Below, one piece after another: positions 53,339-56,661 of a DNA stretch of 62,090 nt; position 1 is the first letter of the stretch; each line of letters starts with the position of its first letter. The stretch spans positions 1 to 62,090 of the forward strand of contig DUQB01000116.1 in the NCBI GenBank assembly GCA_012838035.1, in the 5' to 3' direction. Source of the DNA: Bacillota bacterium (GTDB taxonomy: Bacteria; Bacillota; Limnochordia; DTU080). Made by a program: the position numbers and the translations under genes. The notes beneath the pieces are model-generated. The model was not told the origin of the DNA, ran no database searches, and saw only the letters and a program-made list of their open reading frames with translations.

Positions 53339-54598
53339 TTAGGTATCGTGTCGCCACCATTCCACACTGCTTACAACACGTTCCATGGCAACCTCACGCA
53401 TCGCCAAACGATCTCGAACACCCTGTTCCAAAATTTGCTTCTCTTTTGGCCCCAACTGATCGGTTATGGCGGCGGCAGCGTCATACACATCCTTTTTCGG
53501 CGACTCGGCGGCGAAAATCTCGACTAACGCAGACATCAGTTTACCGCGGTCAACAATGACTAATGCCTGGAGCGCGGCGATTTGTACGGCGGTCACCTTA
53601 TCTTCCGTCACCAGTAGACGTAACTGCGAGGCGACCTCGTCAGAAATCGGCGCTAAAGAGGACAGCTTTGCGGCTACCTGACGTACGACGGGACTCTCTT
53701 CACGCATGAGGTTACGTAAGATGGCCACCAATGGCCCGGACTTGGCGCCTTGCAAAACGCTTTTAGCGCCCTGAGCCAAAGGGGCGTCCGGTAGCCAGCT
53801 GATTAGGCCGGCTTCTTCGTAAGCGAGTAATACCTTCGCGATGCTCAAACGTGTCTTGGGGTCTACCAAAAACAGACCGACCAAATCGGGTATCGCTTCA
53901 GGAGGCATCTGTTCAGCCAGTAGAACAAGGGCGACTGCCCGGATGCGAGCGCTTTTATCCTTTAACCAACGTCTGGCAACAGATGGACCTATTGAGCGCG
54001 CCCCCTCCAATAAGGCATCAAGCGCTTTCTTCTCTAATCGATCGACCTTTTCTCCTTCCGGTTTACGATAAAAACCGATAAGCAGATCCAAGAGATCTTC
54101 ATCAGCCGCTTTACCTATCAGATAGATGACGAGACACTGTAGGAGGTAGTTTTTCGAGCGCAGATCTCGGGCTATAGGAGCATAAAGCTCCTTGCTCGGC
54201 AGAGTAAGCACGATGCGGATCAGCTCGCCGGCCAGCCAACCTTCTTCGGTAAGCGCGATAACACGAAAAAGCGCCGGGAGCGTACTCTCTTCCGTCACAT
54301 CGGCTAAAAGCGCCTTAGCATCTTCTCTGTCCTCATAAAACATATGGCGTATGTGTCGTTCCAGGTCTACAAAGGCATCTTCGTGACGGGCATGCTGCAT
54401 GAAATGGCGGTAAAAATGGACCTGAACAAAGCGCTTCTGGGTGGCGACAACGCGCAAAAAGTAACGACCTTTGCGCGGTGACATCGCCAGCTTCTCCAGC
54501 TCGGCTTGGATGTCTTGGTGCATTTTCTCGCCCTCACCAATTAACAATTCAAAATAACTCTCTACTTTTAGTCGATATGTTTCATTATCCATCCTCAT
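53339..54598 (-). CDS. HEAT-repeat protein of unknown function
   Basis: Repeated alpha-helical units, e.g. RAVALVLLAEQMPPEAIPDLVGLFLVDPKTRLSIAKVLLAYEEAG, SPVVRQVAAKLSSLAPIS; start moved to ATG 54598 (track start 54676). Confidence 0.65.
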   Translation of the reverse strand: MRMDNETYRLKVESYFELLIGEGEKMHQDIQAELEKLAMSPRKGRYFLRVVATQKRFVQVHFYRHFMQHARHEDAFVDLERHIRHMFYEDREDAKALLADVTEESTLPALFRVIALTEEGWLAGELIRIVLTLPSKELYAPIARDLRSKNYLLQCLVIYLIGKAADEDLLDLLIGFYRKPEGEKVDRLEKKALDALLEGARSIGPSVARRWLKDKSARIRAVALVLLAEQMPPEAIPDLVGLFLVDPKTRLSIAKVLLAYEEAGLISWLPDAPLAQGAKSVLQGAKSGPLVAILRNLMREESPVVRQVAAKLSSLAPISDEVASQLRLLVTEDKVTAVQIAALQALVIVDRGKLMSALVEIFAAESPKKDVYDAAAAITDQLGPKEKQILEQGVRDRLAMREVAMERVVSSVEWWRHDT

Positions 54599-55076
54599 GC
54601 CGTCGATGACCTCGCTTAACCATAATTGTTTGCGATAATTAGACGCGGAAAGGATACATGCGCCCGCAAACGGCAAAAAAAGCCGGACAGCAGTGGGCGC
54701 TTAACACGAAGATGGTAGCCCGCTTTGCCTAATTTTGGCTACACGGCAACCTTAGAGAGCCTAAACAGCAGTAAGACGCTTACTGTTGCGTCGTGATCCT
54801 TCGGCTGCCCCTCTTCGATGAACGATTGGCCTGAGACGTTAAAACCTGAGGCGCTACATTTCCTTGCGGTAATATGGCGTGAATCAAGATCTAAACTACG
54901 TCCATTATAGCAAAGGCTACGTGTACTAGCAAATACGTCGCTCATGTTCGCCTAGTTTAAGGTATGTAGACAGTGGCTACTTTATCGCGCTTTACTGCAG
55001 AGAATTACGCGCGGTATGAATTATATGCATGATCCTCCGGCGACTCCTGTTGGTCGCCGGAGAACGCGGACTCGCC

Positions 55077-55670
55077 TCAGTACTTGTAATCGGAATATGT
55101 AACGGTAATTTTCATCATCCATGGACTCAAGGACCCTTCTTGTTTTTCCAAGTAGGCGACTCCGTCGTTGTATATGTAGGACTGGTCGAGGCTCATCTTC
55201 CCCCAAGAATAGCGTGCCTCAATGCGGATAATTAAATAAGTCGCGGGGTCGATGAGTACGTCGGCTTCTGTGGCGCCGGATGACAAGTGAGGTTTCCGCA
55301 CGCCCTTAAGGGTAAGATACTCTTTGCCGCTCCGCCTGGTTATCCCCGTATACTCCCAGTTAAAACGTTCCATTGCCTTACGAAAATCACTGATGTCTTT
55401 CATCATGTCGGCAGATACGAATGAAGGTGCGTTCTGGGAATCCACCTGAATGTCGCTGCCGTTTTGCGTAATTGTTGAGGTCCAGCGGTAGAATCCCAAC
55501 AATCCTCGAGCATAAGCCTCTTGTTTGTATTGCATAACCACCGGTTGGCGCATGGCTTTATTCATGTTCTCGATAATGCTTGCCGTCGTATATGCGCTTG
55601 CTTGCGCCGCGGTAGGCAGAAGGAGCAATATGAGCATGAAGAGAATGGATGTCCGACGCAAAACGTCCAA
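55077..55670 (-). CDS. Secreted protein of unknown function (start uncertain)
   Basis: Signal-peptide-like LRRTSILFMLILLLLPTAAQASA followed by MNKAMRQPVVMQYKQEAYARGLLGFYRWTSTITQNGSDI...; track start 56069 overlaps the divergent gene and is unlikely. Confidence 0.55.
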   Translation of the reverse strand: MDVLRRTSILFMLILLLLPTAAQASAYTTASIIENMNKAMRQPVVMQYKQEAYARGLLGFYRWTSTITQNGSDIQVDSQNAPSFVSADMMKDISDFRKAMERFNWEYTGITRRSGKEYLTLKGVRKPHLSSGATEADVLIDPATYLIIRIEARYSWGKMSLDQSYIYNDGVAYLEKQEGSLSPWMMKITVTYSDYKY

Positions 55671-55779: not shown

Positions 55780-56661
55780 ATGCCGGATACCATCCAAGAA
55801 CGTGTATGGACTTTTAAGGCCGAGAACGACGCGGACGTCCGATGCTCCGCCTGCGATGTCGCGTTCAAAGCAGGCGATAGAGTGGTGACCTGTCCGCGTT
55901 GCAGAGAGATCCACCATTTCCATTGCTGGACGGAAAAAGGCGCATGTTCAACATTTGGGTGCTCACAACTTGCATCACCCGCGTTGGTTAAAGACAAACC
56001 AAATGTGGGAGATCCCCCTACAAAAGAGTCATTTGCCTGGCTGCCCTGGGTTTTAACCATCTCAATCATCCTCCTTCTTGCCGGAGGTTTCCTCTACAAC
56101 CACATGAAGCGTAGGGATGCCAAGAACATCCTTACCGTAATGGTTCCGGCAGACTTCGATGCTCCCATCATCCAGCAGTTAGGAGAGGAATTCGCTCAGA
56201 AGCATCCTCCCTACAAAGTGAACGTTTTATCGATCCCACAGGAAGAACAACTCTTTTATGAAGAAAAGCTGGTGATTATGCTTGTGGCGCGTGATGCTCC
56301 GGAAATCATATTTTTACCTTATGATCGATTCTTGTACTACGCCCGACAAGGTGCTCTAGCCTCGCTTGAGAGTATCAGGCAAATGGTAAAGGATATTGTA
56401 CCTTACGGAGAGCGACTTGACTATGGCATGTTCGACAACACGCTTTACGGCATTCCACATCCGTCTAAAGCGGGATTATTCTCCATCATTTCGATTACGG
56501 ATAATCAGGAACTGAGTAAGCGACTACTCCTGGAAATCATCGCCGCCATGCCGTATACGGAGGGTATTGACGACAGACGTGCGGCTCCGCCCCCGACATT
56601 CTTGGATGCTCTGAGAAAAACAGCCCAGGAATCGGAAGATGCAGCTGAGCAGCCGGACTGA
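55780..56661 (+). CDS. Membrane protein: N-terminal RING/zinc-ribbon-like domain + single TM helix + short solute-binding-protein-like extracytoplasmic domain
   Basis: CSACDVAFKAGDRVVTCPRCREIHHFHCWTEKGACSTFGC; TM WVLTISIILLLAGGFLYNHM; NILTVMVPADFDAPIIQQLGEEFAQKHPPYKVNVLSIPQEEQLFYEEKLVIMLVARDAPEIIFLPYDRFLYYARQGALASLE. Start ATG 55780 preferred (GAGAGAAGG upstream); track start 55702. Confidence 0.72.
   Translation: MPDTIQERVWTFKAENDADVRCSACDVAFKAGDRVVTCPRCREIHHFHCWTEKGACSTFGCSQLASPALVKDKPNVGDPPTKESFAWLPWVLTISIILLLAGGFLYNHMKRRDAKNILTVMVPADFDAPIIQQLGEEFAQKHPPYKVNVLSIPQEEQLFYEEKLVIMLVARDAPEIIFLPYDRFLYYARQGALASLESIRQMVKDIVPYGERLDYGMFDNTLYGIPHPSKAGLFSIISITDNQELSKRLLLEIIAAMPYTEGIDDRRAAPPPTFLDALRKTAQESEDAAEQPD

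Follow-up and report, generated by a model that had tools for sequence, protein, structure and literature searches.

Solute-binding proteins (SBPs) are textbook two-lobed proteins, and in family 1, of which the maltose-binding protein (MalE) is an example, the N-lobe is built from two stretches of the chain, between which the C-lobe is inserted. The RING-like zinc fingers of the Pfam family Prok-RING_1 (PF14446) have been reported in the vicinity of ubiquitin-like genes in certain prokaryotes. Here, we describe a gene of the class Limnochordia that brings the two together: both domains are already known, and what is new is their combination on one membrane protein. In a limited search of open-access papers, no literature was found on a RING-SBP-lobe architecture or on a natural one-lobed family-1 SBP.

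Zinc finger and membrane helix

The gene occupies positions 55780..56661 of the forward strand of the window, by which we mean the whole 62,090-nucleotide stretch of DNA analyzed. It is a 293-amino-acid open reading frame (ORF) that starts with ATG, is preceded by an AGAAGG-like ribosome site ~8 bases upstream, and encodes a RING-like zinc finger, a transmembrane (TM) helix, a single-lobe SBP domain, and a variable tail (residues 263-293). With its ribosome site and its matches in the genomes of the class, it is a genuine gene; a pseudogene or an assembly fusion was ruled out, as many genomes share the architecture. The initial annotation had read the product as a single-pass membrane protein with a RING- or zinc-ribbon-like head, and both parts of this description hold. 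A hydropathy peak of 2.07 marks the only TM helix (residues ~87-106; 56038..56097, forward strand), no second peak is present, and a helix is found at this place in all 30 aligned members. The N-terminal domain (residues ~17-61; 55828..55962, forward strand) carries the Cys/His pattern C22-x2-C25-x12-C38-PR-C41-x3-H45-H46-x2-C49-W50-x5-C56-x4-C61, and PF14446 matches residues 17-58 with 36.3 bits, or 39.6 bits when the N-terminal fragment is taken alone, against a curated cut-off of 29.1 bits. The cross-brace zinc ligands are kept: C22, C25, C38, C41, H46, C49, and C56 are present in 30/30 aligned orthologues, C61 in 29/30, and H45 in 27/30, so that the conservation proposed at the outset as a check on the zinc finger proved essentially complete.

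Prok-RING_1 is matched above the cut-off in 60 of the 73 genomes of the class. The protein described here has in common with this family the N-terminal domain and its conserved zinc ligands, and it differs from the other Prok-RING_1 proteins of the class in that one TM helix links the RING to an SBP lobe. Proteins consisting of RING and TM helix only also occur in the class, within the window's family (L002, L011, L012), and the first of them (G000:C106:18133-18396) is a lobe-less paralogue in the window's own genome, flanked by ORFs for a CsgG-like exported protein and an Eco57I-like methyltransferase, both identified by reading only. A second Prok-RING_1 architecture of the class (L092-L100) combines the RING with a CPYCGE-type zinc ribbon and a multi-TM domain.

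Membership in a Pfam RING family raises the question of whether the protein might act as a membrane-anchored RING-type ubiquitin-like ligase. However, no E2 (UQ_con) match was obtained in the 73 class genomes, in a search run without a positive control, and no ubiquitin-like gene was seen near the RING-lobe gene; we regard such an activity as very improbable.

The SBP-like lobe

The C-terminal part of the protein had been likened to the N-lobe of a family-1 SBP and estimated at roughly 190 residues. The homology was confirmed, while the extent had to be revised: the lobe proper covers ~150 residues (about 112-262) and appears to comprise the whole N-lobe, in both of its segments, with the C-lobe excised. 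A phmmer search of the PDB with the window protein returned 5f7v (Lmo0181) at an E value of 2.8e-7 over residues 122-225, and a profile of 20 orthologues returned 6rjy (an arabino-oligosaccharide-binding protein) at 9e-17 and 5f7v at 2e-16, together with hundreds more PDB chains, nearly all of them SBPs or maltose-binding-protein fusions. The Pfam family SBP_bac_1 scores 22.3 bits in the window protein, just under its cut-off of 26, which is exceeded by four of the five orthologues tested (48.7, 47.7, 33.1, and 26.7 bits); in the orthologues L018, L020, L013, and L030, the curated Pfam cut-offs are passed for both the zinc finger and the lobe.

The evidence for the excision comes from profile-profile comparison with seven aligned full-length SBPs, of which five are encoded in this genome and two elsewhere in the phylum. 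The first segment (residues ~112-228; 56113..56463, forward strand) aligns at an E value of 2.4e-23 to SBP columns 57 to ~175, up to the "YGxP" hinge, which is a hinge-like YGIPHP in the window protein. Directly after this hinge, the chain continues into a late N-lobe segment (ISITDNQELSKRLLLEII; residues ~231-261; 56470..56562, forward strand) that lies ~150 residues further on in full-length SBPs. The remaining segment, FSIISITDNQELSKRLLLEIIA in the window protein (compare VVVPYNVPNPELSKRLARFFGE in the genome's own SBP in L004), aligns to SBP columns 333-356. Tested alone, the short late segment matches these columns at an E value of 3.4e-6, the best of 100 column shuffles reaching 0.021, and the top matches of separate sub-group profiles all fall on the same columns (window's order, 0.006; f4, 1.6e-4; f13/14, 6.5e-6; f7-9, 0.0025; a lipoprotein-like group, 9.5e-5). 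In the PDB profile search, too, 6rjy showed a second, weak stretch of similarity (301-322), which alone is not significant. Every aligned member keeps the two N-lobe segments and lacks the C-lobe. Judged from these alignments, the lobe is thus a complete N-lobe, and the C-lobe (~150 residues) together with the SBP C-terminal region is missing in all members examined, since the chain passes from SBP column ~175 to column 333. Single-sequence AlphaFold models of the window protein were poor (mean pLDDT 51.5 and 48.6), and a Foldseek search with the first of these poor models gave no significant match.

Compared with family-1 SBPs (SBP_bac_1 PF01547 / SBP_bac_8; 6rjy, 5f7v, MalE), the protein therefore has the sequence of the whole N-lobe in common, including the YxxKL...A...PDV...GxLxxL core, whereas two lobes with a ligand site between them are not found, a RING-TM anchor takes the place of the signal peptide or lipobox, and no permease or ATPase gene adjoins. 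Near-invariant residues of the lobe core are P153, K163, L164, A170, P174, L179, L196, and P228. The hinge-like "YGxxHP" motif is conserved as well (H227 in 27/30 members, P228 in 29/30), and so, mostly, is an Arg after the "PD" strand (22/30), a position that is presumably near where the maltose-binding protein contacts its sugar. The motif and the Arg, together with the SBP ancestry and a layout that spans the membrane, would suit a ligand receptor or transducer, the role proposed in the initial annotation: a lone periplasmic lobe would sense a sugar or an envelope polymer, possibly pairing with a second copy so as to restore a cleft between two lobes, and the RING would relay the signal inside. 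Yet all members lack the second lobe, which normally provides half of the SBP site, most of the strongly conserved lobe residues (K163, P174, and L193 among them) belong to the general SBP core, and Prok-RING_1 is without a known signaling output, so that we consider a receptor rather unlikely, if worth keeping in view. There is only a slim chance, in our estimate, that the protein represents a new class of transmembrane sensors, a one-lobe version of bacterial signaling receptors in which the lobes of two molecules would pair around a ligand, rebuild the Venus-flytrap, and join two cytoplasmic RING-like domains.

Distribution, relatives, and gene neighborhood

A search for homologues with the same architecture, which had been suggested as a further check, matched 59 of the 73 genomes of the window's class (33 of 42 genera) at E<=1e-6, with most matches covering both the RING and the lobe. 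Beyond the class, ~400 sampled genomes of the phylum yielded one clear full-length case (L040, in genome G238), and no full-length RING-lobe protein was found in six other genomes of G238's class. A phage or plasmid source of the gene was rejected, as the matches obtained were weak and partial. The wide presence and the near-invariant zinc ligands argue for selection on the protein, and the presence of close relatives in most genomes of the class marks this "half receptor" as a stable, so far unstudied innovation, as opposed to a broken gene. Limnochordia is a two-membraned class for which three closed genomes have been reported (PMC11456536). Omp85 is present in 73/73 class genomes, which argues for two-membraned cells throughout, in which an exported lobe would face the periplasm.

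In a tree of the N-lobes, 13 of 14 full SBPs group together on a branch that excludes the single-lobe proteins, the long-branched full SBP L043 being left unplaced. The AU test does not reject a topology that unites the single-lobe proteins in one clade (p 0.39), and a single C-lobe loss behind all of them is therefore possible but not proven from these sequences.

A single lobe without a RING is found in the genus g90, which belongs to another class of the phylum, in 6/6 genomes (L112-L117). These proteins of ~200 amino acids carry a lipobox-like "AGC"/"GGC" signal and appear lipoprotein-like and exported. The lobe and its excision are the same as in the RING-bearing form, and the two differ in the lipobox-like signal and the missing RING; a separate short RING protein is encoded in one of the six g90 genomes. 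In the two g90 loci read (L101 and L103), the lobe gene lies directly upstream of genes for an FtsE-type ABC ATPase and FtsX (FtsX_ECD, 87.6 bits in a Pfam run on L103). These are followed by a gene for an M23 peptidase that carries a PcsB coiled coil; L103 has an S41 peptidase gene as well. The g90 lobe gene may encode a new envelope or cell-division accessory protein, and its lipoprotein-like product beside ftsEX suggests that the lobe can have uses other than nutrient uptake, in the vicinity of other membrane complexes. FtsEX was rejected as a partner of the RING-bearing form: FtsX_ECD was not found in 10 genomes of the window's class (G000, G001, G002, G003, G005, G015, G034, G061, G063, and G065), and seven control genomes were matched. 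The class may lack a classical FtsEX or carry a diverged one.

As the initial annotation had stated, ABC transporter genes are not seen near the gene: the ORFs of ~38-62 kb of the window, read by eye, include neither an ABC permease nor an ABC ATPase; ABC-permease-like ORFs do occur in two f9/f7 loci, six or more genes away. These observations bear on the idea that the protein regulates an ABC sugar importer, with the tethered lobe replacing a full SBP on the permease and holding the permease inactive or assembled. SBP lobes are established to touch the permease subunits in ABC importers, and the genome encodes many full family-1 SBPs. However, importer genes do not directly adjoin in most loci inspected, and the gene is also present in class genomes in which a first-look search found few SBP-like candidates. 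Importer regulation strikes us as improbable.

The genes that do recur around the RING-lobe gene are of several kinds. The divergent neighbor (55077..55661, reverse strand; start uncertain, about 55637-55670) encodes an exported LolA-like protein whose orthologues adjoin the RING-lobe gene in six loci of the window's order, window included; one orthologue scores 23 bits against LolA_like, below the cut-off of 30. Beyond it in the window's order lies a gene for a HEAT-repeat protein (53339..54676, reverse strand; PF13646, 28.1 bits), which is conserved in this order and in family f13 and occurs close to the RING-lobe gene in 8 loci, counting that of the window. Ten loci of other families (f4, f7-9, and f14; e.g., L060 9560-10912) encode a conserved helical protein "B" of ~450 amino acids with no Pfam match, and LemA-like and TPM-like proteins, recognized by reading, are encoded in several f7-9 loci. 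For the neighboring helical proteins A and B, a common origin was not supported. Since QueG-like and helicase genes are likewise conserved nearby, much of the neighborhood is probably old gene order and weak evidence of function, and the conserved HEAT-repeat, LolA-like, and LemA/TPM-like neighbors may reflect nothing else. PADLOC gave no match to a defense system.

Possible role at the inner membrane

Our preferred reading, held tentatively and with slightly less than even confidence, is that the protein is a vertically inherited inner-membrane adaptor whose periplasmic lobe is reused for docking and coupled to a cytoplasmic zinc finger. We infer its topology, its docking role, and its coupling across the membrane as follows. 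The N-terminal RING-like zinc domain would remain cytoplasmic, the one TM helix would anchor the protein in the inner membrane, and the C-terminal SBP N-lobe would come to lie on the periplasmic side of the two-membraned cell. With no second lobe, the protein cannot enclose a ligand as normal SBPs do, in the manner of a Venus-flytrap, and the lobe is thus probably retained as a docking surface for a membrane or envelope partner; the zinc finger would hold a cytoplasmic partner and so couple the two sides of the membrane. Docking on a membrane permease is natural for SBP lobes, and a membrane adaptor is favored by the other Prok-RING_1 domains of the class, which are also joined to membrane domains. 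Because the single lobe has lost the two-lobed ligand cleft, a function in docking or as an adaptor is no less likely than that of a receptor or transducer. Lys and Arg are more numerous before the helix than after it in 21/30 members, with the reverse in the window's own protein, so the charge rule appears to be a weak guide to topology here.

SBPs being two-lobed as a rule, a stable, class-wide family with precisely one of the two suggests that the lobe is separable from ligand capture and reusable, joined here to a membrane-anchored zinc finger and encoded in the other class beside ftsEX. Set in what appear to be deep-branching, two-membraned Bacillota, the family offers a testable case of the role of a lone SBP lobe and a rare membrane setting for bacterial RING domains.
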